Origin: Baaleninema simplex PCC 7105
GTDB taxonomy: Bacteria; Cyanobacteriota; Cyanobacteriia; Cyanobacteriales; Geitlerinemataceae
Assembly: GCF_000332355.1 (NCBI RefSeq)
Contig: NZ_KB235959.1
Location: 520,418-563,920 of the forward strand
Length of the DNA stretch: 43,503 nucleotides
Direction of reading: 5' to 3'
Position 1 is the first letter of the stretch, and every line of letters starts with the position of its first letter. Shown piece by piece: positions 2,264-43,503 of the stretch. Below the pieces are notes generated by a model. The model made no database searches. It was given only the letters and a program-made list of their open reading frames with translations, and was not told the DNA's origin. The position numbers were made by a program, and so were the translations under genes.

Positions 2264-2430
2264 AGGGCTTTCGATCGAAGTCTAGAATGACAAGGTTCGG
2301 ACTAACAAGTCAGAGGGTTTATCGAATTCGATCGAGATTTTGTTTAAAAATCTTTAGAAAAACTTCACAATAGAAAAGGATGGGAATCTCGATCGATTAT
2401 CTTAAAGCGATTTTGTTAAAGGAGTTTCAC

Positions 2431-2464
2431 CACAGAGGCACAGAGGACACAGAGGACACAGAGG
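2431..2464. repeat. Short CACAGAGG-type tandem repeat
   Basis: Four imperfect repeats of CACAGAGG, two separated as ACACAGAGG, lie in the hemN-bchE gap. The complementary CCTCTGTG-type motif is a frequent intergenic repeat in cyanobacteria. No function is evident. Confidence 0.6.
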
Positions 2465-2479
2465 TAGAAGGAGAAAAAT

Positions 2480-2503
2480 CGAGGCGTATCGTCATACGCC
2501 TCG
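2480..2503 (-). terminator. Rho-independent terminator of hemN
   Basis: CGAGGCGTAT at 2494-2503 (minus-strand reading) and its perfect complement at 2480-2489 form a 10-bp stem with a four-base loop. On the minus strand it is followed by ATTTTTC. It begins 13 bases after the hemN stop, so hemN transcripts probably end here rather than running into bchE. Confidence 0.8.
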
Positions 2504-2515
2504 ACTGAGAGAGGA

Positions 2516-3907
2516 TTAGATGGCTTTCGAGAACCGTTGGTGTTGGCGCTCTTTGGTGTAAGCGTCGAAGGCAAAGGCAATGTTGCGGATGAGAAGCCGT
2601 CCGCTGGGGGTGACTTCAATGCGATCGGGGAAGTTCATCAACAAACCATCGTCTTCTAAGTCTTTTAACTCGGCTTCTTCTTCAGAAAAATAGGTATCGA
2701 AATCGATGAGATATTTGTTTTCGATTTCCCGTTTGTCGAGGCGGAAGTGACACATCAATTCCATGATAATTTCACGGCGCATGATGTTGTCGTCTTCGGC
2801 GAGATGAACGCCTTTTTCGATGGGTTGTTCTTGGCGATCGATCGCGTTGTAGAAGTCTTTGAGGCGTTTGTGGTTCTGCACGTAAACGTCGTGCAGCATA
2901 CTGATAGAAGTCACGCCAAATCCAAACAGTTCGGAATCGGGCTGGGTGGTATAGCCTTGGAAGTTGCGATGCAGTACTCCTTCCCGTTGTGCGATCGCCA
3001 ACTCGTCGTTGGGTTTGGCGAAGTGATCCATCCCAATGAAGACGTAGCCGCCTTCGGTGAGTTTGTCGATCGTCATGTGGAAAATTTCCAGTTTCTCCGC
3101 CGCCTGGGGTAAAGCTTCTACCGGAAGGTTTTTCTGAACGGGTTTCATCCAGGGAACGTAAGCGAAGTTGAACACCGCCACGCGATCGGGATCGAGACGC
3201 AGGGTTTTGTCGATGGTGTCGCGGAACGTCTCGAGGGTTTGGTAGGGTAAGCCGTAAATCAGATCGACGTTGACGCTTTCAAATTTGGCTTCGCGAATCC
3301 AACTCATGACGTTGAAGAGCATTTCTTCGGGTTGGATGCGGTTGATGGCTTCTTGAACTTTGGGATCGAAATCTTGGATACCGAAGCTGATGCGGTTGAA
3401 GCCGAGTTTTCTTAAGAAGTGGATGTAGTTGCGATCGACGTAGCGGGGATTGACTTCGATCGAGATTTCGGCGTTTTCGGCAAAAGTGAAGTGTTCGTGG
3501 ATTTTGTTCCACAACATTTCCACGTGTTCCGGGGTGAGGTAGTTCGGGGTTCCGCCGCCCCAGTGCAGTTGAACCACCGGGCGATCGCGATCGATTAACG
3601 CCGCCGTCCGTTCGATATTTTTAAAGAGGTATTCTAAATAGGGATTGACCACGCGATCTTTCAATCCCGTGATAATCACGTTGCAGCCGCAAAAGTAGCA
3701 GGCACTTTCGCAAAAAGGAATGTGAAAATAGAGAGAGAGCGGTGTTTTTTTAGCGTTGCCCCGTTCGATGGCAGCTTTAAATTCTTCTTCTGTAAACTCG
3801 CCGTGTAGCTCTGTAGCGGGGGGATAGCTGGTGTAGCGAGGGGTGGGGCGATCGTATTTAACCAGTAACTCAGAATTGAAACGAACGGTTTGAGTCAGTG
3901 CTTCCAT
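2516..3907 (-). CDS. hemN: Oxygen-independent coproporphyrinogen III oxidase (HemN)
   Basis: The 463-residue product is a radical SAM enzyme that converts coproporphyrinogen III to protoporphyrinogen IX without O2, in heme and chlorophyll synthesis. The signature YFHIPFCESACYFCGCN gives the cluster cysteines C66, C70 and C73 plus the HemN-typical C75. The N-terminus (YDRPTPRYTSYPPA) and the HWGGGTPNYL segment match true HemN rather than the HemW chaperones. The ATG at 3907 is the natural start. It lies downstream of the heme oxygenase gene on the same strand with a 330-bp AT-rich gap that includes a hairpin, and fits a low-oxygen tetrapyrrole cluster. Confidence 0.93.
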   Translation of the reverse strand: MEALTQTVRFNSELLVKYDRPTPRYTSYPPATELHGEFTEEEFKAAIERGNAKKTPLSLYFHIPFCESACYFCGCNVIITGLKDRVVNPYLEYLFKNIERTAALIDRDRPVVQLHWGGGTPNYLTPEHVEMLWNKIHEHFTFAENAEISIEVNPRYVDRNYIHFLRKLGFNRISFGIQDFDPKVQEAINRIQPEEMLFNVMSWIREAKFESVNVDLIYGLPYQTLETFRDTIDKTLRLDPDRVAVFNFAYVPWMKPVQKNLPVEALPQAAEKLEIFHMTIDKLTEGGYVFIGMDHFAKPNDELAIAQREGVLHRNFQGYTTQPDSELFGFGVTSISMLHDVYVQNHKRLKDFYNAIDRQEQPIEKGVHLAEDDNIMRREIIMELMCHFRLDKREIENKYLIDFDTYFSEEEAELKDLEDDGLLMNFPDRIEVTPSGRLLIRNIAFAFDAYTKERQHQRFSKAI

Positions 3908-4206
3908 TGGTATTTGAATCTTAAAAGATCTGAAATGGTTCGATGTTTGAATTCAGTATTTTTTTGAATTCAATAAAAAATTAGTCACAATGGGTTAGAA
4001 ATTTTTTTACTCGATCGACCGGTGCTTGTCAGTTTAACGGTTAGTTTTGAAGTTTTTGTAGAAAAACCTCAAAAAAGATAGAAAAAATCGATCGAGTAAA
4101 AAATGGTCGGTGTTGGTCGAAAGCTGTGTGGAGAGGAGGGAAACGTTAACTGATGACCGAATCCCCCCAATTTCCTAGGTTGCGTTGAAACCCGTTGTAA
4201 GAAAAG

Positions 4207-4239
4207 GTAGGTTGGATCGAGAGATAAAACCCAACCTAC
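4207..4239 (-). terminator. Hairpin downstream of heme oxygenase gene
   Basis: GTAGGTTGG at 4207-4215 pairs with CCAACCTAC at 4231-4239 immediately after the heme oxygenase stop. On the minus strand it is followed by CCTTTTCTT. It may terminate transcription partially. GTAGGTTGG palindromes also occur as dispersed repeats in cyanobacteria. The rest of 3908-4206 is AT-rich with no gene seen. Confidence 0.5.
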
Positions 4240-4240
4240 A

Positions 4241-4990
4241 CTACTCCGTCGGAACTAAATTTGCAGGTTGTCCGGGGGCGCGTTCGGTACTTCCCGGTTT
4301 GTCTTGGCGCGTCACCAAATCGAAAACGTGGTCGCCGATCGCGGCTTTCACCTCGTCTTCCAAATCGTGCATGACGTTGCGGTTGAGTTCAAAGGCCAAG
4401 TTCGCTTCGTCTACAATGCGAGGGGCGATATCGTCGGACACCGGTAAGGCGTTGAGGGTGTCGCGGTAGCGGAATTTAAACGCTCGTCGCGCTTCCGGGG
4501 TGGAAATCGCATCGAATTCGTGTAACCCGGTTCCTTTGTCTTCCGGTAAATCTAACGCCGATCGCGCGATGTTTCGCAGGCTTTGTCCGCCAGACAAATC
4601 GCCCATATACCGGGTGTAAGCGTGCGCCACCAGCAATTCGGGTTGAGTTTTGGCCACTTCCCGAATGCGATCGACGTACACTTTTCCGGCTTCCACGGGG
4701 GCGATTTCCTCGCGCCAGTTGTCACCGTAGTAGTAAGCGAGATCGGCTTCGAGTTTCGCGGTACGGTTGAGTTCGGGGAAGTAAATCCCTTTGACGGCGG
4801 GATTGTCCAAATGGTTTTGGATTTCTTCCTCAAGGGCGCTATAGACCAAATATAAGTTTGCCAGGAGTTTGCGGAACGGCTCTCGTTCCACGATCCCTTT
4901 GAGGAAGCATTTCATAAAAGCGGTGTTTTCGGCTGCGGTGTGGGAGTGCTTCGTCCCTTCCCGTAACAGACTGGCTAAATTGCTACTCAT
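4241..4990 (-). CDS. ho: Heme oxygenase (biliverdin-forming)
   Basis: The product (249 residues from the ATG at 4990) cleaves heme to biliverdin IXalpha, iron and CO using ferredoxin, the first step to phycobilins. The proximal histidine lies in the N-terminal segment REGTKHSHTAAEN, and the distal-helix motif GDLSGGQSLRNIA is intact. The ATG at 4990 (MSSNLASLLREG) fits the family start; an in-frame TTG four codons upstream is less likely. Cyanobacteria often carry a housekeeping HO1 and a low-oxygen HO2. Association with hemN and bchE suggests the HO2 role, but that is context, not a sequence diagnosis. Confidence 0.92.
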   Translation of the reverse strand: MSSNLASLLREGTKHSHTAAENTAFMKCFLKGIVEREPFRKLLANLYLVYSALEEEIQNHLDNPAVKGIYFPELNRTAKLEADLAYYYGDNWREEIAPVEAGKVYVDRIREVAKTQPELLVAHAYTRYMGDLSGGQSLRNIARSALDLPEDKGTGLHEFDAISTPEARRAFKFRYRDTLNALPVSDDIAPRIVDEANLAFELNRNVMHDLEDEVKAAIGDHVFDLVTRQDKPGSTERAPGQPANLVPTE

Positions 4991-5015
4991 ATGCCTGACC
5001 AAAGCGTTTTTATAC

Positions 5016-7151: not shown

Positions 7152-7721
7152 CTATTCAACTTCAACACAAAATACTGAAGCTATATCGCAAGGAACATTA
7201 TTGATATACCATTCTTCTTCAAATTGATTGAGTAATGTAACTGACTCTTCCGAACTTACGTTTGTCTTAATTATCAAAAACAAACATTCGTCTATTTCTG
7301 TCAGTTCAAAACCTAAATTTTCACTTGCTACCAAGGTTTCATCCTCGTAGTTGTAGCATATATAGTCAAGGATGTATTCATCAGATTTACATCCAAATAG
7401 CTGTTTGGCTTTCTTCAAAGCATCTTCAAGAAGATCTAAAATAGCGGGATGTTTCTGCACAAAACACTTGACTTGAGAAGGATTTCGCAATTCAAAACTT
7501 TCAAGTAGTGCTACTTGTTGCTGCAAACGATTGATTTGTTGTTGGTAATCGCGAATGCTATTTAAGATTTTGTTATAATTACTATTACTGCCGATCGACC
7601 ATTCTCTTACATCACGCTTTAATTCTAAGTCAATTTTATTTTTAGAGATACGATCTCGATCTTTGTAGATATATTTTTGCCCTTTTGGAATTTCTGAAAA
7701 TGGTAGCTTGAATGTCTTCAT
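7152..7721 (-). CDS. Hypothetical protein paired with HEPN-like gene
   Basis: This 189-residue protein is not recognised with confidence. Residues about 50-80 (YNKILNSIRDYQQQINRLQQQ) predict a short coiled coil. The C-terminal half (VQKHPAILDLLEDALKKAKQ, then strands with acidic residues ending LLNQFEEEWYINN) loosely recalls a cyanobacterial family that sits beside HEPN-type genes. It is translated just ahead of the HEPN-like gene with a three-base gap, so it may be its partner or neutraliser. AT-rich composition sets the pair apart from the neighbours. Confidence 0.6.
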   Translation of the reverse strand: MKTFKLPFSEIPKGQKYIYKDRDRISKNKIDLELKRDVREWSIGSNSNYNKILNSIRDYQQQINRLQQQVALLESFELRNPSQVKCFVQKHPAILDLLEDALKKAKQLFGCKSDEYILDYICYNYEDETLVASENLGFELTEIDECLFLIIKTNVSSEESVTLLNQFEEEWYINNVPCDIASVFCVEVE

Positions 7722-7876
7722 CTCTATCTCTGTTAAAAACTCTTGATTTATTCAATCAATGCTATCTTCTTAACTGATGCGAAGAAATCATAGGAAGCCA
7801 ATACGGTTTTGTGCTATTACATTTTGTGCTATATCATGCTTCGTTTGAATCATGCAACTCAAACATCCGAGTCCGT

Positions 7877-8539
7877 TTAATCTGGATCTTTATCTATATT
7901 TGAATTAATGCAGCTAGTCCCTAATTCTTTTAATTTATCTTCGATCAGCCTCGATTTTTTGCTTGCTCTTTGGATTTGCTCTTGCAACTCTTGTAAATCG
8001 CTTCCATCCAGAGCAACGAAGAATTCTTTACTTCCCTCTTGAGAACTGTATTGAATTCTTAAACTGTGAACGACAATTACACTTTTAAAGTCATCTTTTT
8101 CAAAAACCGGTCGAATATCAGTTAATATTCTAGAACTAGAATATATTTTTTCGTACTCTTGTGTTAGTAAATTTGCCTTCAAAAAAAAGCTAATTTCTGG
8201 AATTTCTAAAAATTCTTGAATCCGATCCTTGAATACTTCTTTTTGGTTTTCTTCTAATTCTAAATTTAAAGTTAGATCTACTAAGATTTCTTCGATATCA
8301 TAGCCTCCATACTCTATAAAAGCTTTTAAGGAAAACAAAGAGCTTATGATATCTAAAACTACCCTCTCACTCAGACCAGAAGCCGCTTTTTCAAAAACTT
8401 CCCGAGCGATCGCGCCTAAGTCTAGCGATCTCTCGCCTATACTATTTAATGCGGAGACAAGGGAATCCATTTCGGATGTACTTATAGATCCTATTTGAAT
8501 GAGTCCTGGTTTGTACTTATCTGGAATTGCGATCGGCAT
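7877..8539 (-). CDS. Hypothetical protein in AT-rich islet
   Basis: The 220-residue acidic product (MPIAIPDKYKPGLIQIGSIS) is unrecognised. The N-terminal 110 residues look all-helical; the segment at about 150-205 looks like a beta hairpin (VIVVHSLRIQYSS, then KEFFVALDGSDL) followed by a long charged helix, somewhat like a COMM-type tail, but this is only a resemblance. No signal peptide or membrane segment is seen. It is separated from the HEPN pair by 155 bp, shares their AT-rich composition and has its own upstream AT-rich region (8540-8757). Confidence 0.65.
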   Translation of the reverse strand: MPIAIPDKYKPGLIQIGSISTSEMDSLVSALNSIGERSLDLGAIAREVFEKAASGLSERVVLDIISSLFSLKAFIEYGGYDIEEILVDLTLNLELEENQKEVFKDRIQEFLEIPEISFFLKANLLTQEYEKIYSSSRILTDIRPVFEKDDFKSVIVVHSLRIQYSSQEGSKEFFVALDGSDLQELQEQIQRASKKSRLIEDKLKELGTSCINSNIDKDPD

Positions 8540-8757: not shown

Positions 8758-10233
8758 ATGCATCTTCAAAGCTGCTCGACACAAGCTATTTATAGTCGCG
8801 AAGATTGGAAACGGGGCTACCTGTCCCAAACCCAAGAGTCGGCGTACTGGATAGACGACATTGAGGGAGAAATTCCCCCAGACTTAACCGGAACCCTGTT
8901 TCGCGTCGGCCCCGGTTTGCTGAATATCGGCGACTATCCCGTCAACCACCCCTTCGACGGCGACGGAATGGCCTGTGCGATCGCCTTCAAAGACGGTCGC
9001 GCCTTTTTTCAAAACCGCTTCGTGCGTACCCAAGGGTTTGTCGAAGAACGAGAGGCGGGAAAACCCCTCTATCGCGGCGTGTTCGGAACCCAGAAACCCG
9101 GCGGTTGGCTGGCGAACCTCTTCGACTTGCGCCTCAAAAACATCGCCAACACCAACATTATCCACTGGGGCGGTAAACTGCTGGCGTTGTGGGAAGCGGC
9201 CGAACCCCATCGCCTCGATCCCCACACCCTAGAAACCCAAGGACTCGATCGCCTCGACGGACTCCTCGATACCGGAGATGCGTTTTCCGCACACCCCCAC
9301 ATCGACCCCGCCTCGCAGTTCGACGACGGAAAACCCGTTCTCGTCAACTTCTCGGTAAATCCGGGGTTGTCCACCGACATCACCATTTACGAATTCGCCC
9401 CGGACGGAACGCTTCTCCGCCAACACACGCACGCGATTCCCGGTTTCGCCTTTCTCCACGACATGGCGATTACACCGAACTACTGCGTCTTTTTCCAAAA
9501 TCCCGTCACCTTCAACCCCCTTCCTTACCTTTTGGGCTTTCGCGGTGCGGCGGAATGCGTGAAGTTCGACCCCGACGCCCCCACGAAAATCGTCTTGATT
9601 CCCCGCGACGGTTCGCGCAACGTGAAAATTGTCGAGACGGAACCTTGTTTCGTGTTCCACCACGCCAACGCTTGGGAAGACAACGGAGAGGTGGTTGTGG
9701 ATTCGATTTGTTACGAGTCGTTCCCGCAACCCGATTCGGACTCTGACTTTCGCGACGTGGATTTCAGCCAGATTCCCGAGGGTCAGTTGTGGAATTTCCG
9801 GGTGAATTTGCAGAATGAGAACGTCCGTCACGAGGTTATCGAACGCCGCTGTTGCGAGTTCCCCGTGTTACATCCCGAGACAGTGGGACGGAAAAATCGA
9901 TATTTATTCATGGGAATCGCCCACCCCGAACGAGGAAACGCACCGTTACAGGGCGTTATGAAGGTCGATCGCGAAACGGGGACATCTCAGGTGTGGAGTT
10001 TTGCGCCTCGCGGGTTTGGCGGCGAACCGGCGTTCGTTCCGCGTCCGGGTGCGACGGAGGAAGATGACGGATGGGTGCTGTTGTTGGTGTACGACGCCGA
10101 AAAGCATCGATCGAAGTTGGCGATTTTCGATGCAAAATCCATCGACGCCGGGCCGATCGCTCAGTTGAACTTAAAGTATCACATTCCCTACGGACTGCAC
10201 GGGAGTTTCACGTCGGAGTATTTCGGACGATAG
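8758..10233 (+). CDS. Carotenoid oxygenase (apocarotenoid-15,15'-oxygenase type)
   Basis: The 491-residue product is a non-heme iron carotenoid cleavage dioxygenase and closely matches the layout of Synechocystis ACO, which makes retinal from apocarotenals. The iron-binding histidines are visible as H179 (FSAHPHID), H234 (FLHDMAITP), H301 or H302 (FVFHHANAW) and H481 (PYGLHGSF). Other family motifs are GTLFRVGPGLL and NHPFDGDGM. Length equals the family's. The ATG at 8758 fits the start. It faces away from the AT-rich islet. Substrate choice cannot be read from the sequence. Confidence 0.93.
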   Translation: MHLQSCSTQAIYSREDWKRGYLSQTQESAYWIDDIEGEIPPDLTGTLFRVGPGLLNIGDYPVNHPFDGDGMACAIAFKDGRAFFQNRFVRTQGFVEEREAGKPLYRGVFGTQKPGGWLANLFDLRLKNIANTNIIHWGGKLLALWEAAEPHRLDPHTLETQGLDRLDGLLDTGDAFSAHPHIDPASQFDDGKPVLVNFSVNPGLSTDITIYEFAPDGTLLRQHTHAIPGFAFLHDMAITPNYCVFFQNPVTFNPLPYLLGFRGAAECVKFDPDAPTKIVLIPRDGSRNVKIVETEPCFVFHHANAWEDNGEVVVDSICYESFPQPDSDSDFRDVDFSQIPEGQLWNFRVNLQNENVRHEVIERRCCEFPVLHPETVGRKNRYLFMGIAHPERGNAPLQGVMKVDRETGTSQVWSFAPRGFGGEPAFVPRPGATEEDDGWVLLLVYDAEKHRSKLAIFDAKSIDAGPIAQLNLKYHIPYGLHGSFTSEYFGR

Positions 10234-16170: not shown

Positions 16171-17502
16171 ATGCTAAACATGACGTGGGAATTTAAGCTA
16201 GAGCCAACGGCGGAGCAGGTTTCAGAGATCGAACACATTCTTGATGTGTGCCGCCATGTCTGGAATTTTGCTCTGCGGGAACGTAAAGACTGGCTAAAAT
16301 CCCGCAAGTCGCCCGTGAATGCGTGCTCAATTCGGCAAGAATTTATCTTGCCAGCAGATGCACCCTTCCCGAACTACCACGTTCAGGCTAAGCGTTTGAC
16401 CGCTGCCAAGACTGAATTTCCTCAGCTCAAGACGGTCAACGCTCAGGTTCTTCAGCAAGTCCTTAGAAAACTTGAGACTTCTTGGGAGTCGTGGCGGTTA
16501 AAGCGTTCGGGTCTTCCACGGTTCAAAAAGCCGAATCGAATGCGGTCGTTGGTCTTCCCTCAGATGCTCAAAAACTGCGTGTCTGATGAGGGTATAAAGC
16601 TGTCGCAACTGGGCTGGGTTCGGGTTCGGTGGTCGCGGAAAATTCCTGATTTATTTCAGGTTAAGCAAGCTCGAATTGTGCGTAAGGCATCCGGGTACTT
16701 TGTCATGCTTAGCCTTCAGGCTGACGTCGATATTCCTGCTGTAGCCCCTCACGGACATCCGGTAGGGATTGATGTGGGTCTGGAGTACTTTCTTTCAACG
16801 TCTGATGGAGAACAGGTCAAGCGACCTCGCTTCTTCAACAAACTGCACCGCAAGCTGAGATTGCTGCAACGCAGGCTTAAGAAAAAGCAGAAGGGGTCAG
16901 CTAACTGGCTGAAACTCCAGAAGAAAATTGCCAGAGTCCATCAACGTATTGCCGATACGCGAAAAGACTGGCATTTCAAGCTGGCTCATCACCTCTGCGA
17001 CGGTGCAGGGATGATTTTTGTCGAAGATCTCGACTTCCGCATTATGGCGAAAGGAATGCTAGGCAAGCATACCCTAGATGCCGGATTGGGTCAGTTTACC
17101 AACCAGATTCTTCCCTGGGTGTGCTGGAAGCGTGATGTGTATTACGGCAAGGTGGATGCTCGTGGCACTTCTCAGGAATGTCCCGATTGTGGGGCAGAGG
17201 TTCGTAAAGACCTCTCAACTCGAATCCATCACTGCCACAACTGCGGGTCAACAAAGCCCCGTGATGTGGCCAGTGGACAAGTCATCTGTAGCCGTGGGCA
17301 ACGGCAAATCGAAAATGCCTGTGGAGTCGAGGCGACGGGGGATCGGGTCACTGATTCTAGTTGGCTGGCTGTGAAGCAGGAAATCTTTGGGGCGACCCAA
17401 GGAATCTCCCTGCATACCCGGAACGGGTTGCTGGGAGAGGATGTCAACTGCCCCAGTACGTCACGCAAGCAGAAGAAGGGGACGGATTTTGCGAACTGGT
17501 AG
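16171..17502 (+). CDS. tnpB: Stand-alone TnpB nuclease (IS1341-type), copy 1
   Basis: The 443-residue product is an RNA-guided DNA nuclease of IS200/IS605-type elements. The N-terminus is the OrfB helix-turn-helix region. RuvC-like catalytic residues are D201 (GIDVGLEYF), E285 (FVEDLDF) and D365 (TKPRDVASG). The zinc ribbon is C337/C340 and C355/C358. No tnpA is adjacent, so this is a stand-alone type. After D365 the frame continues through ENACGVEATG and ends past the element's right end at about 17448, so the last 18 or so codons come from flanking DNA. A near-identical inverted copy lies at 42355-43503. Confidence 0.93.
   Translation: MLNMTWEFKLEPTAEQVSEIEHILDVCRHVWNFALRERKDWLKSRKSPVNACSIRQEFILPADAPFPNYHVQAKRLTAAKTEFPQLKTVNAQVLQQVLRKLETSWESWRLKRSGLPRFKKPNRMRSLVFPQMLKNCVSDEGIKLSQLGWVRVRWSRKIPDLFQVKQARIVRKASGYFVMLSLQADVDIPAVAPHGHPVGIDVGLEYFLSTSDGEQVKRPRFFNKLHRKLRLLQRRLKKKQKGSANWLKLQKKIARVHQRIADTRKDWHFKLAHHLCDGAGMIFVEDLDFRIMAKGMLGKHTLDAGLGQFTNQILPWVCWKRDVYYGKVDARGTSQECPDCGAEVRKDLSTRIHHCHNCGSTKPRDVASGQVICSRGQRQIENACGVEATGDRVTDSSWLAVKQEIFGATQGISLHTRNGLLGEDVNCPSTSRKQKKGTDFANW
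17416..17448 (+). mobile_element. Right end of tnpB element, copy 1 (probable end of omega RNA scaffold)
   Basis: ACCCG-GAA-CGGGT (17416-17428) is a subterminal hairpin, followed by GGGAGAGGATGTCAAC at 17433-17448. The same order is found at the other copy (42281-42313), and the two sequences diverge directly after GTCAAC. This places the right end there. In such elements the 3' end of tnpB and the right end encode the omega RNA, with the guide taken from the first flanking bases. Confidence 0.75.
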
Positions 17503-33404: not shown

Positions 33405-33707
33405 TCACGCCAACATCGGATCGAGTTTCCCCTGACTGTCTAACTCGTAGAGATCGTCACAACCGCCGATATGCTGGTTGTTGATAAAAATCTGCGGCAC
33501 CGAACGGCGTCCGTTCGCGCGTTCTGCCATTTTCGCACGCGCTTCCTCATTACCGTCGATTTTATACTCTGTAAACTTCACCCCTTTCCACCACAGCAGC
33601 AACTTCGCGCGAATACAAAACGGACAAGTCTGCCAAGTATAAATTTCAACATCAGCGTTGACGCGCTCGGGATGGCGTCCTAATAGAGAATTGAGCCAGT
33701 CAAACAT
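33405..33707 (-). CDS. grxC: Glutaredoxin 3 (GrxC type)
   Basis: The 100-residue product has a thioredoxin-fold dithiol active site TWQTCPFCIRAK (C28, C31), the cis-proline segment RSVPQIFINNQHIGG and the glutathione-site GGCDDL. It reduces disulfides with glutathione. A longer N-terminal head of about 20 residues precedes the fold. It is downstream of sufS on the same strand, beyond a terminator. Confidence 0.94.
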   Translation of the reverse strand: MFDWLNSLLGRHPERVNADVEIYTWQTCPFCIRAKLLLWWKGVKFTEYKIDGNEEARAKMAERANGRRSVPQIFINNQHIGGCDDLYELDSQGKLDPMLA

Positions 33708-33911: not shown

Positions 33912-35174
33912 CTAACCCATGATGTTCTTGAAAAACGCGATCGTCTCCTTCAACGCCGCCACAAAGCCATCGATTTCCTCGCGAGTATTATAAAAATACA
34001 AACTCGCCCGCGCCGTCGAAGACTGCCCTAAAATCTTATGTAACGGCTGCGTGCAGTGATGCCCCGTGCGAATGGCAATGCCCGCCTCGTCCAACAACGT
34101 CGAAAGGTCGTTGGCGTGAACGTCCGCCGACGTAAACGACGCTAACGCCGCCCGTCCGCTGCCGTCGGCTTTCGGTTGCGGGCCGTACACCGTAATCCCC
34201 GGAACCGTCGAGAGTTTGTCGAACAAATACCGACAGAGTTCGTGTTCGTACTCGGCGACTTTATCCATCCCGAGATTCATCAAATAATCTACCGCCGCAC
34301 CGAGAGCGATCGCTTCACCAATCGCCGGAGTTCCCGCCTCAAACTTATGGGGAAGTTCGGCATACGTAGACGCTTCCAACTCCACATCAGCAATCATCTC
34401 GCCGCCGCCCAAAAACGGAGGCATGGCTTCGAGAATCTCCAATTTGCCGTATAAAAACCCGATTCCCGTCGGCGCACACATCTTATGTCCCGACGCCACC
34501 AGCCAGTCACAGCCGATTTCCTGCACGTCGATGGGCATATGCGGCACACTTTGGCAGGCGTCGATTAACACCTTCGCCCCCCGTTGGTGCGCCAGTTCGG
34601 TAATGTCGCGAACCGGGTTGATGCAGCCGAGGGTGTTGGAGACGTGAACCACGGCGACGAGTTTCGTTTTCTCCGACAGCAGGCTTTGATACTGCTCGAA
34701 ATCGAACTCTTGCGTCTCCGTCATTTCGACGAATTTCAACACCGCCCCGGTACGCTGCGCCACCAACTGCCAAGGCACAAGGTTACTGTGGTGTTCCATC
34801 ACCGAGAGGATAATTTCGTCTCCCAGTTGCAGCGTGTTCGCCCCCCAGGAATACGCCACCAAGTTGATGGCTTCGCTGGCGTTGCGGGTAAAGACGATTT
34901 CGTTGCGAGACGCGGCGTTGACGAAGGCTGCCACTTTATCGCGGGCGGCTTCGTAGTTCTCCGTGGCGCGGGCGCTGAGGGCGTGGACGCCTCGATGAAC
35001 GTTGGAGTTATCGAATTTGTAATAGTGTTCTAGGGCGTCGAGAACCGCGTTCGGCTTCTGGGATGTCGCCGCGTTGTCCAGGTACACCAGGGGTTTACCG
35101 TGAACCTGCTGGTGCAGGATTGGGAATTCTTCCCGCACGCGATCGGCTAAGGTTTTTTCAGTAGCAAGAGTCAT
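33912..35174 (-). CDS. sufS: Cysteine desulfurase SufS
   Basis: The 420-residue PLP enzyme takes sulfur from cysteine for Fe-S cluster assembly. The PLP lysine is K231 ([15 protein letters not shown]) and the catalytic cysteine is C374 ([11 protein letters not shown]), typical of group II desulfurases. Family motifs [11 protein letters not shown] and [15 protein letters not shown] are intact. It is last in the suf unit, 94 bp after sufD. No sufE or sufU is in the window. Confidence 0.96.
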
Positions 35175-35268: not shown

Positions 35269-36603
35269 TTACAACTCGACGCGACAGGCGACGCATTGGG
35301 CGATCGCTTTCCGCAGGGACTCTAAAGGAACCTCTTGCAGAATTTCCGCCGCAAACGCATCGACGAGGAGGTTTTCGCTGGTGGTTTTGTCCAACCCGCG
35401 ACTTTGCAGATAAAACACCTCGTCCGCTTCGAGTTGACTCACCGTCGCGCCGTGGCTGCACTTGACGTTATCGGCCACGATTTCCAACTGCGGTTTCGTG
35501 TTAACTCGCGCCTTCGGCGACAGCAACAGGTTGCGGTTGAGTTGGCTGGCGTTGGTCATCTGCGCCGCTTGGGGGACGACGATACGCCCGTTGAAGACGG
35601 CGTGGGCTTTATCGCCGACAATGCACTTGTGCAGTTGGTTCGCCGTTCCGTTGGGATAGTTGTAAGCAACAGTGCTGTGGGTATCGGCGGTTTGCGTTTT
35701 GCCGATGAGAGTCAACCCGTTTAAGGTGGTGGTCGTCCCTTCCCCAATTTGATGAACTTCGATGTTGTGTCGCGAAAGCTGCGCCCCCAGCGTCAAAGCG
35801 TGGAAGCGATAGCGACTGTCGCGGGCTTGGGTGACAGCGGTAGTGCCGATGTGGAACGCCGAACCGTTGTCCCGTTCGAGGCGCACGTGATTCACGTCCG
35901 CGTTTTCGTGCAGCCACACTTCCGTCACGGCGTTGTTGAAATAGGCGACACCTTGGGAATCGGGACAGCCTTCAGTGGTGGCAATATACTCTTCAACCAG
36001 CGTCAGGCTACTGTTGCTTTCCGCGACGACGAGACAGCGGGGTTGCGTCAGCATTGCCTTATCCGTTGGAGACGCCACAAACATCAGTTGCAGCGGCGTT
36101 TCGACGATTTTTCCGCGCGGAACCCAGACGATCGCCAAATCGGTAAAACTGGCGGAGTTCAACGCGGTAAAGACTTCACCGTGGTTCGGATGTCGGGCGA
36201 GATAGTCGCCCAGTTGCTCTTGTTTTTCCGGGGGAAGTGCGCTGACGTTCCCCGCCCAAACACCCTCTGGCAACGCCCGAACGTCCGATAGACTTTCAGT
36301 GTACGCACCGTTGACGAAAACGAGCCGACTTTGCGGCGCTTCCGGAAGCAGACAAGTTTCGATGCGCGACTGCTTGACGTCTACCGACGGCGCGGTGTTG
36401 AACTCCACGTTCAGCAGCGGCGACAAATCAGTAAAGCGCCATTCTTCATCGCGCGTCGTGGGAATCGCCAGTTCTCGCACCCAGGCTTCCGATCGATCGC
36501 GCAGGGTTTTCAGCGCCGTCACCTCTGTAGCGAGGGGTTCTCGCAGGTTCAGCAGTTGGGTGAGCGACGAAACTTGTTGTTTGGTAATCGTTTCAGGACT
36601 CAT
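35269..36603 (-). CDS. sufD: Fe-S cluster assembly protein SufD
   Basis: The 444-residue product is the SufB paralogue that completes the SufBC2D scaffold. It has the beta-helix core and the C-terminal CSHGATVSQLEADEVFYLQS motif, whose histidine is important in SufD. The start codon ATG at 36603 directly follows the sufC stop TAA without a spacer, so translation is probably coupled. Confidence 0.95.
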   Translation of the reverse strand: MSPETITKQQVSSLTQLLNLREPLATEVTALKTLRDRSEAWVRELAIPTTRDEEWRFTDLSPLLNVEFNTAPSVDVKQSRIETCLLPEAPQSRLVFVNGAYTESLSDVRALPEGVWAGNVSALPPEKQEQLGDYLARHPNHGEVFTALNSASFTDLAIVWVPRGKIVETPLQLMFVASPTDKAMLTQPRCLVVAESNSSLTLVEEYIATTEGCPDSQGVAYFNNAVTEVWLHENADVNHVRLERDNGSAFHIGTTAVTQARDSRYRFHALTLGAQLSRHNIEVHQIGEGTTTTLNGLTLIGKTQTADTHSTVAYNYPNGTANQLHKCIVGDKAHAVFNGRIVVPQAAQMTNASQLNRNLLLSPKARVNTKPQLEIVADNVKCSHGATVSQLEADEVFYLQSRGLDKTTSENLLVDAFAAEILQEVPLESLRKAIAQCVACRVEL

Positions 36604-37389
36604 TTACACCCCCACCGTTGCAAATTCTTCGATCGCCCAATCGTAACCCTGCTCTTCCAGTTTCAGGGCTAAATCTTTATCGCCGCTGGTGATAATGCGT
36701 CCGTCGTACATCACGTGAACGAAATCCGGAACGATGTAGTCCAGCAACCGCTGATAGTGAGTAATCATCAGCGTGCAATTGTCTTCTGTGGCGAGTTGGT
36801 TCACCCCGTTGGCAACGATTTTCAGCGCGTCGATATCCAACCCGGAATCCGTTTCGTCGAGAATGGAAAGGGTGGGTTCGAGGAGCGCCATTTGCAAGAT
36901 TTCGTTGCGTTTTTTCTCCCCACCGGAAAAGCCTTCGTTGACACTGCGGTTGAGGAACTCGGCTCTCATTTTCACGACGTCGAGTTTTTCTTCAACGAGA
37001 TCTTCAAAATCGAAGGTGTCGAGTTCTTCTAAGCCTCGAGCTTTGCGGTGGGAGTTATAAGCGACGCGCAGAAAGTCCAGGTTGCTAACGCCAGGGATTT
37101 CAATGGGGTATTGGAAGGCGAGGAAAACGCCTGCGGTGGCGCGATCGTCGGCTTCGAGTTCGAGGAGGTTTTCTCCTTTATAAATGACTTCGCCCCCCGT
37201 TACTTCGTAGTCGGGATGTCCGGCGAGAATTTTGGAGAAGGTGCTTTTTCCGGAACCATTAGGTCCCATAATGGCGTGGATTTCTCCGGCTTTGATTTCT
37301 AGGTTCAAGCCTTTGAGAATTTGGGTTCCCTCGACGTTGGAAGTGAGGTTTTTGACGGATAGAATGGTGGGTGCGTTTTCGACAATCAT
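36604..37389 (-). CDS. sufC: Fe-S cluster assembly ATPase SufC
   Basis: The 261-residue ABC-type ATPase has Walker [10 protein letters not shown], signature [11 protein letters not shown], Walker [13 protein letters not shown] and the H-loop MITHYQRLL. It powers the SufBCD scaffold. The ATG at 37389 ([15 protein letters not shown]) is chosen; a TTG six codons upstream is in frame. Unlike the usual sufBCDS order, two other small genes and repeats separate it from sufB. Confidence 0.96.
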
Positions 37390-37558
37390 GGGTTTAGCGG
37401 TTGACAAAGTTTGAATTTTGAAACGACCGAGATAGATTTTATTTTATCTCGTTTGGTGCTTCAGGATTTTGGCTCTTCGGAATTTAGGGTGACAGAAAAA
37501 CTAACTTCACGAGATTTCAAGGGTTTTGGCTCTCGAATTTTCGATTTTTTGTATCATT

Positions 37559-38596: not shown

Positions 38597-40039
38597 TTAA
38601 CCGACGGTTCCTTCGAGTTTCAAGCTCAACAATTTATCGGCTTCCGCCGCAAATTCCATCGGTAACTCGTTGAAGACATCTTTACAGAATCCGCTGATAA
38701 TCATAGACACCGCGTCTTCTTCCGAAATCCCCCGCTGCGCGAAGTAGAACAACTGATCCTCACCAATTTTGGAGGTGGAGGCTTCGTGTTCGACTCGCGC
38801 CTTGTTGTTACTCACGTCGATGTAGGGGAACGTATTCGCTTCCGCGTTGTCCCCAATTAACATCGAGTCGCATTGGGAATAGTTCCGGGCGCCGGAGGCT
38901 TTCGGCCCCATTTTCACCAAGCCGCGATAGCTGTTTTTCGACTTCCCAGCCGAAATCCCTTTCGAGATAATGGTGCTTTTGGTGTTTTTGCCGATATGCA
39001 CCATTTTCGTGCCGGTGTCGGCTTGCTGGCGGTTGTTGGTGAGGGCTACGGAATAAAACTCACCCACGGAGTTGTCGCCAACTAAGACGCAACTGGGATA
39101 TTTCCAGGTGATGGCGGAACCGGTTTCTACTTGCGTCCATGAGATTTTGGAGTTCTTGCCTTTGCACAACCCCCGTTTGGTGACGAAGTTGTAAATTCCA
39201 CCTTTGCCTTCTTCGTCTCCGGCGAACCAGTTTTGTACCGTGGAGTACTTGATTTCGGCGTCGTCGAGTGCCACCAGTTCCACCACCGCAGCGTGAAGCT
39301 GGTTGGTGTCGAACATGGGAGCGGTGCAGCCTTCGAGATAGGTGACGGATGCCCCTTCTTCGGCGACGATGAGGGTACGCTCGAACTGTCCCGCTTCTCC
39401 ATTATTGATGCGGAAGTACGTCGACAAGTCCATCGGACATTTCACGCCTTTGGGAATGAAGACGAAGGAACCATCGGTGAAGACAGCGGAGTTCAAGGCG
39501 GCGAAGTAGTTATCGCCCACGGGAACCACGCTTCCGATGTATTTTTTCACCAGTTCGGGGTGTTCTTGCAAGGCTTCTGAAATCGAACAGAAGATAACCC
39601 CGGCTTCGGCGAGTTTTTCTTTGAACGTCGTCGCCACCGATACGCTGTCGAAAATGGCATCGACGGCGACGTTGGCGAGGCGTTTTTGCTCCGAAAGGGG
39701 AATTCCCAGTTTCTCGAAGGTGTCGAGAAGGGCGGGATCGACTTCGTCGAGGCTTTGTTTTTTCTTGTCGCCTTTTACTTTCGGAGCTGAGTAATAGACG
39801 ATATCTTGATAGTTGATGGGGGGATAGCTGGCGTGTTGCCAGTTGGGTTCTTCCATCTTCAGCCATTGGCGATAGGCTTTCAGACGGAATTCCAACATGA
39901 ATTCCGGTTCGTTTTTCTTGACGGAAATGGCACGGATGACGTCTTCGTTTAATCCGGGCGGTACACTTTCGGTTTCGATATCGGTTACGAAACCGTATTT
40001 GTAGGGCTGGTTGACTAGGGTTTTGACGGTCGCACTCAT
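38597..40039 (-). CDS. sufB: Fe-S cluster assembly scaffold SufB
   Basis: The 480-residue product is the core scaffold of the Suf system. It starts [20 protein letters not shown], has the conserved [15 protein letters not shown] and the beta-helix with [20 protein letters not shown], and the C-terminal [20 protein letters not shown]. Length matches cyanobacterial SufB. It lies 132 bp downstream of ftrC on the same strand, so ftrC and sufB may share the SufR-controlled promoter. Confidence 0.97.
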
Positions 40040-40171: not shown

Positions 40172-40540
40172 TTATGCACTCATGCGATCGGTCGTTTCGC
40201 GAATTTCTTCGATGCTAATGTCTTGTTGGTCGCCTGCGAAGTCGTTATCTTCAGTTAGGAACAACATACAGTGGCATTCTTTTCGTTCTCGCATGGGAAC
40301 GCAGGGGCAGTTCCAATAGGTGGCTTTGACTTCGGCTTCTTTATCTTCGTAGTGGCGACAAGGACACAGCGGCGCACCTAACTCGTCTTTGTGTTTGGCT
40401 AAGCCTTCAATGACGACAGCCGTGATGCTTAAGTCCGAACAGAAGTAAGTTCCGGTGCGCTTGGCGTACTGTTCGGAAAACTTCCGCATGGCTTCTAAAT
40501 TCTTGTCGGTTGCCTGCTGGGGACTCGTCGGTGCATTCAT
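40172..40540 (-). CDS. ftrC: Ferredoxin-thioredoxin reductase catalytic subunit
   Basis: The 122-residue product has the seven-cysteine pattern of FTR beta: C34, C59-P-C61, C78-P-C80 and C89-H-C91. These bind a [4Fe-4S] cluster next to the catalytic disulfide. It passes electrons from ferredoxin to thioredoxin and so links light to enzyme regulation. It is the first gene downstream of the SufR operator region on the minus strand, divergent from sufR and ahead of sufB. Confidence 0.96.
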   Translation of the reverse strand: MNAPTSPQQATDKNLEAMRKFSEQYAKRTGTYFCSDLSITAVVIEGLAKHKDELGAPLCPCRHYEDKEAEVKATYWNCPCVPMRERKECHCMLFLTEDNDFAGDQQDISIEEIRETTDRMSA

Positions 40541-40585: not shown

Positions 40586-40599
40586 CAACAAGGGTGTTG
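40586..40599. promoter_or_regulatory. SufR operator 1 (CAAC-N6-GTTG)
   Basis: The perfect palindrome CAAC-AAGGGT-GTTG fits the published CAAC-N6-GTTG SufR motif. It lies 46 bases upstream of the ftrC start on the minus strand, where it would overlap the -35 region relative to a TATAGA-like box at 40566-40571. Confidence 0.85.
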
Positions 40600-40671: not shown

Positions 40672-40700
40672 ACGTTGCTGCAATGGGTTTGGGGATAACC

Positions 40701-41396
40701 ATGACGAGGGCGACCACTCAGCATAGTTCCACGAAAGGCGACATTCTGCAATACTTGCTCAAATACGGGCAAGCGAAAGCGCAGACCTTGGCCGAGGCGT
40801 TGAAAATCAGCCCGCAGGCCATTCGCCGCCATCTGAAGGATTTAGAAGGAGAAAACCTGATTCAACATCGTTCGGTGCAAGCGGGAATGGGACGCCCGCA
40901 GCACGTTTACGAACTCACGAGTGCCGGACGCGAACGGTTTCCCAATCATTACGACGAGTTTGCGGTGTCCTTGCTCGATACGCTGGCCGAAACGGTCGGT
41001 CAAGACGAGATGGGCAAGGTTCTCGGCAAGCAATGGAAACGCAAGGCTGAGTTCTATCGCCAGAAACTCGGTCGAGCGCCGCTTCGAGAACGGGTGGAAC
41101 ACTTGGTCGAACTCCGCCGCGTTGAAGGTTATATGGCGGAATTGATGGAATTGGAGGCGGAGGACGACAACGCCAAGCCGCGATTTGTGGTTGCAGAATA
41201 TAATTGTGCGATCTCTAATGTGGCTGAATCGTTTCCGAGCGTGTGCGGTCACGAATTGGATATGTTTACACGGGCGTTACCGGACTGTCACGTGCGACGC
41301 ACTCACTGGATGATTAACGGCGAGAACCGCTGCGGCTATTTGATTCAGTTGAAGGAGGGCGACGAGCCTTCGCCACCGTCGCACCGATCGCAGTGA
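40701..41396 (+). CDS. sufR: Fe-S cluster-binding repressor SufR
   Basis: The 231-residue product (ATG at 40701, MTRATTQHSSTKGDIL) has an N-terminal DeoR/ArsR-like winged helix (QAIRRHLKDLEGENLIQHRS) and a C-terminal domain with C169, C182, C196 and C211, three of which fit the SufR cluster ligands. SufR with its cluster represses the suf genes. An earlier in-frame ATG at 40683 adds six residues and lies almost on the predicted transcription start. It is divergent from ftrC-sufB across two operator sites. Confidence 0.95.
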   Translation: MTRATTQHSSTKGDILQYLLKYGQAKAQTLAEALKISPQAIRRHLKDLEGENLIQHRSVQAGMGRPQHVYELTSAGRERFPNHYDEFAVSLLDTLAETVGQDEMGKVLGKQWKRKAEFYRQKLGRAPLRERVEHLVELRRVEGYMAELMELEAEDDNAKPRFVVAEYNCAISNVAESFPSVCGHELDMFTRALPDCHVRRTHWMINGENRCGYLIQLKEGDEPSPPSHRSQ

Positions 41397-41599
41397 AGCG
41401 ACTTCGAGAGACAGTTCAATGCCGAAAACGAAATATCGCTCGGCGCGATCGCACGTCGCGGACAGTCTGAGTGAGGGGTTCAGTAAATCCCATCTCTCGA
41501 ACGTGCGATCGCTTAGATTGCTTATACGCTTACGGCTGTACTCGACCACAAGCGCCGAGCGAAGGAGTATTGTTGTCGTCTAGGTATCTCTGTCTTGAC

Positions 41600-41833
41600 T
41601 CAAGCACCAACGGGTTGGAAACCGTCGCAAGACATGACGGGGGATTCCAACGTGCCGTTGAGAGCGCAAGATTTGTTGACACACAGGGCGCAGTTTGCGG
41701 TACGATAACTGCTACACATCGTCACGGGAAAGTCCGCAGAACCGCTCAGAGGGCAGTTGAGCGACAAGCAAGCTTGACAATTAGCTGTTTGCAGTTGTTG
41801 CGATTGGACTTCCCGAACAGTAGTCGTAGCCAT
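41600..41833 (-). CDS. Small protein with duplicated CX2CX4CX12C motif
   Basis: The 77-residue product has two repeats of identical spacing: C19, C22, C27, C40 and C48, C51, C56, C69 (offset 29). Shared residues around them include N-C, P/A-L-(S/N)-G, P-V and a final Y/F (e.g. NCQACLSLNCPLSG and NCALCVNKSCALNG). Eight cysteines in this arrangement suggest metal or Fe-S binding, or disulfides. No signal peptide is seen. GGAG about ten bases upstream of the ATG at 41833 is a good ribosome site. It is convergent with sufR. I do not recognise a named family; the function is unknown. Confidence 0.8.
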   Translation of the reverse strand: MATTTVREVQSQQLQTANCQACLSLNCPLSGSADFPVTMCSSYRTANCALCVNKSCALNGTLESPVMSCDGFQPVGA

Positions 41834-42280
41834 GATGCTTCTCCAAGGTAGATAGTTGATGCTAAGGAAAACCCAGTCGGCGATCGGGTGACGTGGAATC
41901 GCAGCACGAGTTTCAGAGGCGATCCTTCGTAATACCGATGCTTGAGTGCGTTCTTCCTCTAGCTGTCATCAGCTTACTACTCTCAACAAAATATGTCTAT
42001 TGACTTTCAATAAGCCAATCTTGCTGCAAATTCTCAATAAGCATACTCTCCTGCGCCCGATCTCAAAGATCCACAGGGGTGAACTTTTAAAGCCTACAGT
42101 CGAGGCTTATCTATTTAACTGATAACAATCTTCAAGTGTAAGTAACAAAACTTTACATTAAAGGATAGATCGGCTTTGGCAGCGATCGGTGTTTGAGCTG
42201 CGCGTCAACTGTGATAAGACGCGTCAGTTCGCTGCGTTTCCTCTGTTTTTCGGGTTTCCAACGCTTCGCGAACGACGTGC
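41834..42280. other. Intergenic region upstream of the cysteine-rich gene
   Basis: About 450 bp, AT-rich in its right part, with a direct repeat TCAATAAGC near 42007 and 42033. No gene is convincing. It must contain the promoter of the 41600-41833 gene and ends at the right end of tnpB copy 2. Confidence 0.4.
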
Positions 42281-42354: not shown

Positions 42355-43503
42355 TCACAGCCAGCCAACTAGAATCAGTGACCCGATCCCCCGTCGCCTC
42401 GACTCCACAGGCATTTCGATTTGCCGTTGCCCACGGCTACAGATAACTTGTCCACTCGCCACATCACGGGGCTTTGTTGACCCGCAGTTGTGACAGTGAT
42501 GAATCCTGGTTGAGAGGTCTTTATGAACCTCTGCCCCACAATCGGGACATTCCTGAGAAGTGCCCCGCGCATCCACCTTGCCGTAATACACATCGCGCTT
42601 CCAGCACACCCAGGGAAGGATCTGATTCACAAATTGACCCAATCCAGCATCTAGGGTGTGCTTGCCCAGCATTCCCTTGGCCATAATGCGGAAGTCGAGA
42701 TCTTCGACAAAAATCATCCCTGCACCGTCGCAGAGGTGATGAGCCAGCTTGAAATGCCAGTCTTTTCTCGTATCGGCAATACGTTGATGGACTCTGGCAA
42801 TTTTCTTCTGGAGTTTCAGCCAGTTAGCTGACCCCTTCTGCTTTTTCTTCAATCGACGTTGCAGCGATTTCAGCTTGCGGTGCAGATTGTTGAAGAAGCG
42901 AGGTCGCTTGACCTGTTCTCCATCAGAAGTTGAAAGAAAGTACTCCAGACCCACATCAATCCCTACCGGATGTCCGTGAGGGGCTACAGCAGGAATATCG
43001 ACGTCAGCCTGAAGGCTCAGCATGACAAAGTACCCGGATGCCTTACGCACAATTCGAGCTTGCTTAACCTGAAATAAATCAGGAATTTTCCGCGACCACC
43101 GAACCCGAACCCAGCCCAGTTGCGGCAGCTTTATACCCTCATCAGACACGCAGTTTTTGAGCATCTGGGGGAAGACCAACGACCGCATTCGATTCGGCTT
43201 TTTGAATCGTGGAAGACCCGAACGTTTTAACCGCCACGACTCCCAAGAAGCCTCAAGTTTTCTAAGGACTTGCTGAAGAACCTGAGCGTTGACCGTCTTG
43301 AGCTGAGGAAATTCAGTCTTGGCAGCGGTCAAACGCTTAGCCTGAACGTGGTAGTTCGGGAAGGGTGCATCTGCTGGCAAGATAAATTCCTGCCGAATCG
43401 AGCACGCATTCACGGGTGACTTGCGGGAATTTAGCCAGTCTTTACGTTCCCGCAGAGCAAAATTCCAGACATGGCGGCACACATCAAGAATGTGTTCGAT
43501 CTC
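42355..43503 (-). CDS. tnpB: Stand-alone TnpB nuclease (IS1341-type), copy 2, start outside window, C-terminus frameshifted
   Basis: The frame is open to the right edge and begins EIEHILDVCRHVWNFAL, so only about 19 N-terminal residues are missing. It differs from the copy at 16171 by only a few substitutions. The RuvC residues (IDVGLEYF, VEDLDF, KPRDVASG) and zinc-ribbon cysteines are all kept. A run of three A's (42414-42416 complement) replaces four in copy 1 (17312-17315). This shifts the frame after RGQRQIE, giving the short tail MPVESRRRGIGSLILVGWL. The catalytic core is intact, so activity may survive. Confidence 0.9.
   Translation of the reverse strand, partial: EIEHILDVCRHVWNFALRERKDWLNSRKSPVNACSIRQEFILPADAPFPNYHVQAKRLTAAKTEFPQLKTVNAQVLQQVLRKLEASWESWRLKRSGLPRFKKPNRMRSLVFPQMLKNCVSDEGIKLPQLGWVRVRWSRKIPDLFQVKQARIVRKASGYFVMLSLQADVDIPAVAPHGHPVGIDVGLEYFLSTSDGEQVKRPRFFNNLHRKLKSLQRRLKKKQKGSANWLKLQKKIARVHQRIADTRKDWHFKLAHHLCDGAGMIFVEDLDFRIMAKGMLGKHTLDAGLGQFVNQILPWVCWKRDVYYGKVDARGTSQECPDCGAEVHKDLSTRIHHCHNCGSTKPRDVASGQVICSRGQRQIEMPVESRRRGIGSLILVGWL

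Follow-up and report, generated by a model that had tools for sequence, protein, structure and literature searches.

A small gene on the minus strand of the window (the whole stretch of 43,503 nucleotides of Baaleninema simplex PCC 7105 DNA that was analyzed) encodes a 77-residue protein built on two exact C-x2-C-x4-C-x12-C units, and in one cyanobacterial family (f27) the same gene forms a block with feoA, feoB and feoC. Judged by sequence and conservation, it is a real gene, of a cyanobacterial family that is unnamed in the libraries searched. Our preferred reading, to which we give slightly less than an even chance (about 0.48), is that its product is a cytosolic protein that assists in the handling of ferrous iron or Fe-S clusters and has two autonomous four-cysteine sites.

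The gene and its product

The coding sequence (41600..41833, minus strand) is assigned on its open reading frame, its conservation, its relatives and its dN/dS ratio. It starts with ATG, and GGAG, the likely ribosome-binding site, lies at 41841..41844 on the same strand, 11 to 8 bases 5' of the start (spacing judged by eye), in agreement with the ribosome site that had been predicted. The cysteines are at positions 19, 22, 27 and 40 (unit 1, 41714..41779) and 48, 51, 56 and 69 (unit 2, 41627..41692); the two units, both read from the minus strand, are offset by 29 residues and have similar flanks. The original prediction of two cysteine repeats of identical spacing is thus confirmed. A 126-residue frame on the plus strand (41471-41851) overlaps the gene; of the overlapping frames, it is the minus-strand one that is conserved in relatives. 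The protein contains CxxC, lacks histidine, CC and CxC, and shows no hydrophobic span (by eye).

Searches with the window protein found no match in Pfam at E values up to 10, none in NCBIfam or the PDB, and none in PHROGs (where one protein of the ~310-residue family described below also went unmatched and the protein from locus L037 matched at E 0.03); a PDB search with a profile of ten relatives likewise found nothing. No family model or solved structure of the known Fe-S families (ferredoxin, Bfd, CDGSH, NifU-like and others) matched it. A CDGSH-like reading of the string SCDGF was considered and rejected: the residues following the last cysteine vary (DQF, GSF, SQF). An AlphaFold model made from three sequences (the window protein and the two copies at locus L033) is unusable (mean pLDDT 48, pTM 0.30), and so does not separate the iron and zinc readings taken up below. 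In the open-licence PMC literature no paper was found on the two-unit protein, on the motif string, or on a small cysteine-rich protein accompanying FeoB in cyanobacteria; NirP1 is described there with one absolutely conserved cysteine (PMC10907346).

The two-unit family

At least 13 genomes, the window's included, carry the two-unit protein in two overlapping samples, one of 388 genomes of the class and the other of 310 genomes of the order. Profile searching of the class sample located intact proteins in at least 10 genomes at 11 places (G360 holds two) and a broken remnant in G177, and of the order sample at least five carriers: the window's genome, G002, G325, G622, whose protein has all eight cysteines, and G403, whose protein shows the first four before the contig ends. 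These counts are lower bounds, because scoring was confined to the 14 or 18 best candidates of each genome and the sampled genomes represent a larger group. In families f27 and f37 every candidate was scored: the gene is present in six of 63 f27 genomes, and the 38 genomes of f37 yield one intact gene and one remnant. Two of 14 genomes of the window's own family have it. So patchy a distribution implies that the gene has been gained and lost, or transferred. No relatives were found in viral contigs, plasmids or phages; the scan of genome contigs gave one.

All eight cysteines are invariant in ten aligned proteins, as are M1, L23, G31, P36, V37, R44, N47, G60, S64, P65, V66 and F72. (The alignment leaves out the near-identical G174 copy, the second copies of G360 and G002, the remnant in G177 and the later-found proteins of G622 and G403.) With eight cysteines and 12 other residues invariant in 10 of 10 sequences, the cysteine pattern is not due to chance. 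The original prediction had looked to other cyanobacteria for homologues with conserved cysteines, and relatives are now known from 12 other genomes. All ten aligned proteins have the eight cysteines with PV before, and F or Y after, the last cysteine of each unit, the features by which the family is defined; the L038 protein, the second G002 copy and the G622 protein share them.

The gene appears to be under purifying selection. Over a 56-codon core, comparison of the window gene with its nearest relative, the first G002 copy, gives dS 1.15 and dN 0.11, a ratio of 0.10; the ratio is 0.17 against the second G002 copy and 0.05 between the two G002 copies. Within this core, silent changes are all that separates the three copies found in G174 and G360, which are near-identical. 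Low ratios and silent-only differences are the basis for that statement.

Two imperfect copies were encountered. At L033 (Geitlerinema sp. BBD 1991-9) a second tandem copy at 7668-7922 has its ATG in a different frame from its body, and is either frame-broken at the N-terminus or an assembly error. At L045 (G177) a broken remnant (9237-9350) lies beside a gene that we take to be queE-like; the intact G243 copy has the same neighbor.

The four-cysteine unit as a module

The unit also occurs singly, at the end of a longer protein of another type that is found in about 90 or more of the 388 genomes, its open frames being 197 to 400 residues long and mostly near 310. (The figure is 100 profile-matching genomes minus eight with the two-unit protein only, and minus G177 and G262.) Letter-by-letter reading showed the four cysteines in 32 of these genomes (two sets, of 19 and 15, with two genomes in both). 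In all 15 loci that were fetched, the ~310-residue proteins have a common body and the unit lies within the last 45 residues; the best profile matches of these proteins are at E about 1e-8. The unit comes in three kinds, with the consensuses ANCTACLTRNCP.AG...YPV..C.SY, ANCY.C...DCALNG.L.SPVMAC.QF and ANC..C....CPM.G..DSPV..CR.F. The last is that of the ~310-residue proteins, with its pattern of Pro, Gly, SPV and Phe between and after the cysteines. Mean identity between kinds outside the cysteines is 0.29 to 0.35.

Since a single copy ends the ~310-residue protein, the unit is an independent module, and since it stands alone at a C-terminus with its conserved pattern, its four cysteines look like one self-contained site. 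As sets of four that travel singly or in pairs, they are most plausibly interpreted as one putative metal or cluster site apiece.

The ~310-residue family (also unnamed; loci L014-L032 and L075-L089) was dropped as a guide to function. At most three of the 15 loci have any one neighbor in common, and there is no iron neighborhood. Two scanned members gave only weak Pfam matches (DUF3574, E 0.024), none of them above cut-off. One member used as query found no match in the window's genome.

The feoABC block

At five loci (L037, L038, L041, L042 and L043) the small gene immediately precedes feoA-feoB-feoC in the same orientation, 0.5 to 0.9 kb from feoA. These loci belong to five genomes (G174, G360, G200, G207 and G343) of three genera in the single family f27, of which G174 and G360 are nearly identical in this region. 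At L037 FeoA, FeoB and FeoC are confirmed by Pfam; FeoA and FeoB at the other four loci are homologous to these, and FeoC matches are present at all five. The surroundings differ. In the roughly 6 kb that precede the small gene, nine of the ten locus pairs have no protein in common and the tenth has one, at 29% identity; downstream of feoC, over up to 6 kb (counted at L043 from the FeoB frame), nine pairs again share nothing and G174 and G360 share three proteins. With outer flanks that differ, the small gene-feoA-feoB-feoC block itself is the conserved part.

Adjacency to feo is confined to f27 and may therefore be the outcome of one event. Even there, two of the seven places (G339 and one of the two in G360, which is beside a transposase gene) are away from feo, and in eight of the 13 carriers the stretch that was read has no feo gene. 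Terminator-like sequences follow the small gene at L037, L038, L040 and L041 (by eye), and cotranscription with feo is accordingly not probable. In the window's genome, the feo locus is on another contig (L091, 3724-10032), in the order feoA-feoA-feoB-feoC by BLAST; it holds a pair of feoA-like genes, and its feoC is present in two copies that are identical.

FeoC also keeps company with the small gene at the level of genomes. At E<=1e-10 it is found in 74 of 388 genomes, made up of 9 of the 10 carriers and 65 of the 378 genomes without the small gene (p 1.9e-6 by Fisher's test; the test was devised after the neighborhood had been seen, and its statistics ignore relatedness, as do those that follow). 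Within f27 the figures are 6/6 carriers versus 9/57 others (p 7e-5) and outside it 3/4 versus 56/321 (p 0.02). The strict threshold was applied since some of the weaker and partial matches are to SufR genes themselves (in G036 and G147, at the same coordinates); by the looser count of matches over the search cut-off, FeoC is in 118 of 388 genomes and in 10 of 10 carriers. Over both samples, 11 of the 13 carriers have a clear FeoC, G002 and G403 among them; G622 has none, and G018 has a weak partial match, though over the cut-off. FeoC does not require the small gene, since nine f27 genomes have the former without the latter.

The sufR neighborhood

The original prediction had leaned on a neighboring sufR, and the neighbor is indeed SufR (40683..41396, plus strand): it matches TIGR02702 with 313.9 bits against a cut-off of 178.8, its coordinates being those of the longest open frame, with a possible true start at an internal ATG at 40701. 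Beyond it are ftrC, for the catalytic subunit of ferredoxin-thioredoxin reductase (40172..40540, minus strand; PF02943), and four genes that we take, by name, to be sufB (38597..40039, minus strand), sufC (36604-37407), sufD (35269-36603) and sufS (33912-35174), the last three following sufB and all in the same order as at L034. SufR-type boxes have the consensus CAACN6GTTG. The window has exact copies only at 33647 and at 40586..40599 (CAACAAGGGTGTTG), the latter between ftrC and sufR.

As a clue to function this neighborhood is weak. Of the loci read, just two, those of the window and G002, have the small gene convergent (tail to tail) with sufR and near ftrC and the suf genes; at the other ten intact-gene loci compared, and at the remnant locus L045, the stretch taken contains no relative of the window's SufR. 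The co-occurrence with sufR that the prediction proposed to examine is uninformative, because SufR is over cut-off in 335 of the 388 genomes and the intact small gene is in at least 10. No SufR box is present in the 350 bases upstream of 13 small genes at 12 loci, the window's included (at L043 the distance was counted from an ATG that lies 36 bases into the gene). Upstream of the small genes, the best fit to the 19-base Fur-box consensus has 12 matching positions and was rejected.

Ferrous iron is thus a stronger contextual clue than sufR, and the link of the family to iron is moderate. What had been predicted, an unnamed metal- or Fe-S-binding protein, is supported in that the protein is unnamed, conserved and cysteine-based; its connection with iron is supported too, mainly by way of feoABC in relatives, and sufR as the clue to it is not.

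Other neighbors and the leader

The loci offer a scatter of other neighbors. Fur is about 1.3 kb upstream of the small gene at L039, with a single intervening gene, for a hydrolase; a superoxide dismutase of the Fe/Mn type is about 0.6 kb upstream at L041, a flavodoxin about 6 kb away at L043, and plastocyanin about 0.8 kb downstream at L108 (G622). Genes of the suf group are nearby in the window and at L034. No evident iron gene adjoins the small gene at L035, L036, L040, L044 or L109. Within 10 kb of the L042 block are AcsF cyclase (TIGR02029) and relatives of the HemN and heme-oxygenase-like proteins of the window, the HemN relative being a fragment at the edge of the stretch; chlAII-ho2-hemN is described as a low-oxygen cluster activated by ChlR (PMC4500134). 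L042 alone thus hints at a low-oxygen, ferrous-iron setting.

The window has two other features of note. A reading frame that we presume to be TnpB-like occurs in two similar copies, at 42355-43482 and 16171-17502, one of them lying upstream of the small gene and codirectional with it. At 638-5002, BchE (TIGR02026, 775 bits), HemN (TIGR00538) and a presumably heme-oxygenase-like frame lie in a row; this is a low-oxygen tetrapyrrole cluster. BchE is recorded in only two of the 37 cyanobacteria tabulated in PMC4500134.

The f27 leaders of the small gene carry TACTGTATAGGAG, or something close to it, followed by a hairpin (L037, 9884-9957; also L040, L041, L042 and L043). The arms covary (GATAGCT/AGCTATC, GGTAACT/AGTTACC, GATGACC/GGTCATC), with changes on both sides in four of seven pairs among the five leaders; L036 fits six pairs. 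Of 300 shuffled sequences, between 1 and 22 attained the best-stem score of the seven f27 leaders (at L042 the best stem used other arms); L039 and L044 gave 8 and 10, and L036, the window, L034 and L108 gave 104, 211, 228 and 221, respectively. The hairpin is a candidate 5' regulatory element of these leaders and is not seen in the window.

Comparison with known systems

Among the systems compared, FeoC is the closest analogue in working. The FeoC of K. pneumoniae carries a [4Fe-4S] cluster, and FeoC is described in the same source as having an O2-labile Fe-S cluster and, in Salmonella, as a protein whose loss leads to FtsH-dependent loss of FeoB (PMC10710835). Both FeoC and the two-unit protein are small and cysteine-bearing, and the cyanobacterial FeoC beside the small gene also has a cysteine cluster. 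The two-unit gene is in the feo locus at five f27 loci and away from it at the others that were read. In contrast to FeoC, the two-unit protein lacks PF09012; FeoC having a gene of its own in the same block, the two-unit protein comes in addition to it and is encoded upstream of feoA.

The metallothionein SmtA is also small, cysteine-rich and cyanobacterial. It is described as holding a Zn4Cys9His2 core in 56 residues, metallothionein cysteines being clustered in CC, CxC and CxxC (PMC10119931). The two-unit protein differs in its two exact four-cysteine repeats and in having no histidine, CC, CxC or Pfam match; by the two features tested, it is not an SmtA-type metallothionein. The ~310-residue proteins share a homologous CX2CX4CX12C unit, but have only one, and a long body that the two-unit protein lacks. 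At the feo loci of other bacteria there is a small cysteine-rich protein, the FeoB-associated Cys-rich membrane protein; the window protein differs from it in lacking a hydrophobic span and has no Pfam or NCBIfam match.

A proposed role and its alternatives

As we picture it, the protein would be small and soluble, with an autonomous module of four cysteines that occurs twice, each copy most likely holding one metal center: an Fe-S cluster or an iron ion (or, alternatively, zinc). As an accessory of ferrous-iron handling, it would bind iron, either as such or in a cluster assembled from iron just imported, and would then pass this on, or report the state of iron or oxygen to the Feo uptake machinery and its clients. 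We infer metal binding by the cysteines, the identity of the metal (iron) and the part played by the protein, as a carrier, sensor or buffer and not as a structural element.

The main rival makes each unit a structural zinc site, in effect a new kind of small zinc-binding module, in an adaptor for proteins or nucleic acids, the feo neighborhood in f27 being incidental. A folded zinc module accounts for four cysteines accompanied by conserved P, G, PV and aromatic residues no less well than a cluster site does, the loci of the ~310-residue proteins have no neighbor common to more than three of 15, and eight of 13 carriers are without feo in the stretch read; what speaks for iron is that the feo block is kept while both its flanks change, and that FeoC and the small gene co-occur, so that we hold the zinc reading to be unlikely, if by no means negligible. 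That the protein might be a metallothionein-like buffer of Zn, Cu(I) or Cd, as was originally entertained, seems improbable: eight cysteines in 77 residues are in keeping with it, as is the proximity in G622 of plastocyanin, a copper protein, but Pfam, searched to E 10, gives no match, CC, CxC and histidine are absent, and the strict order of the cysteines, together with the conserved hydrophobic and aromatic residues, argues for a defined fold rather than a flexible thionein.

The neighborhood in the window lends itself to two further readings. The even number of cysteines would allow a metal-free thiol/disulfide redox switch with up to four disulfides, ftrC is two genes away in the window (ftrC and sufR are near in G002 as well), and CP12, a small cyanobacterial regulator, is described as working through cysteines that form loops when oxidized (PMC7760959). 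However, proximity to ftrC is limited to these two genomes, and exactly repeated spacing, with single use of the unit elsewhere, is more like a metal site; we give this reading as low a probability as the metallothionein one. Fainter still is the prospect that the small gene belongs to the SufR regulon and that its product supplies or relays Fe-S clusters to SufR or SUF. It adjoins sufR in the window and G002, but the two genes are convergent, the 350 bases upstream contain no SufR box, and the adjacency extends to two of 13 carriers, with SufR in 335 of 388 genomes and the small gene in at least 10. A general part in ferrous-iron/Fe-S handling remains our preferred reading. That the protein is, beyond this, a dedicated iron or Fe-S relay, taking ferrous iron, or a cluster made of it, from FeoB under low oxygen to the SUF assembly machinery, or reporting it to FeoB/FeoC, is in our estimate a long shot.

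Significance

Annotation readily overlooks small cysteine proteins that take part in iron handling. The two-unit family has a strong cysteine signature and a moderate link to iron; an unnamed two-site protein found at feoABC in one family and beside suf in another is a concrete and testable candidate for iron handling, and its four-cysteine module is reusable, being common to a second unnamed family of ~310-residue proteins. The iron donor for cyanobacterial cluster assembly is described in a review as remaining elusive (PMC7058544). If the relay reading were true, the two-unit protein would fill this iron-donor step in the lineages that carry it.
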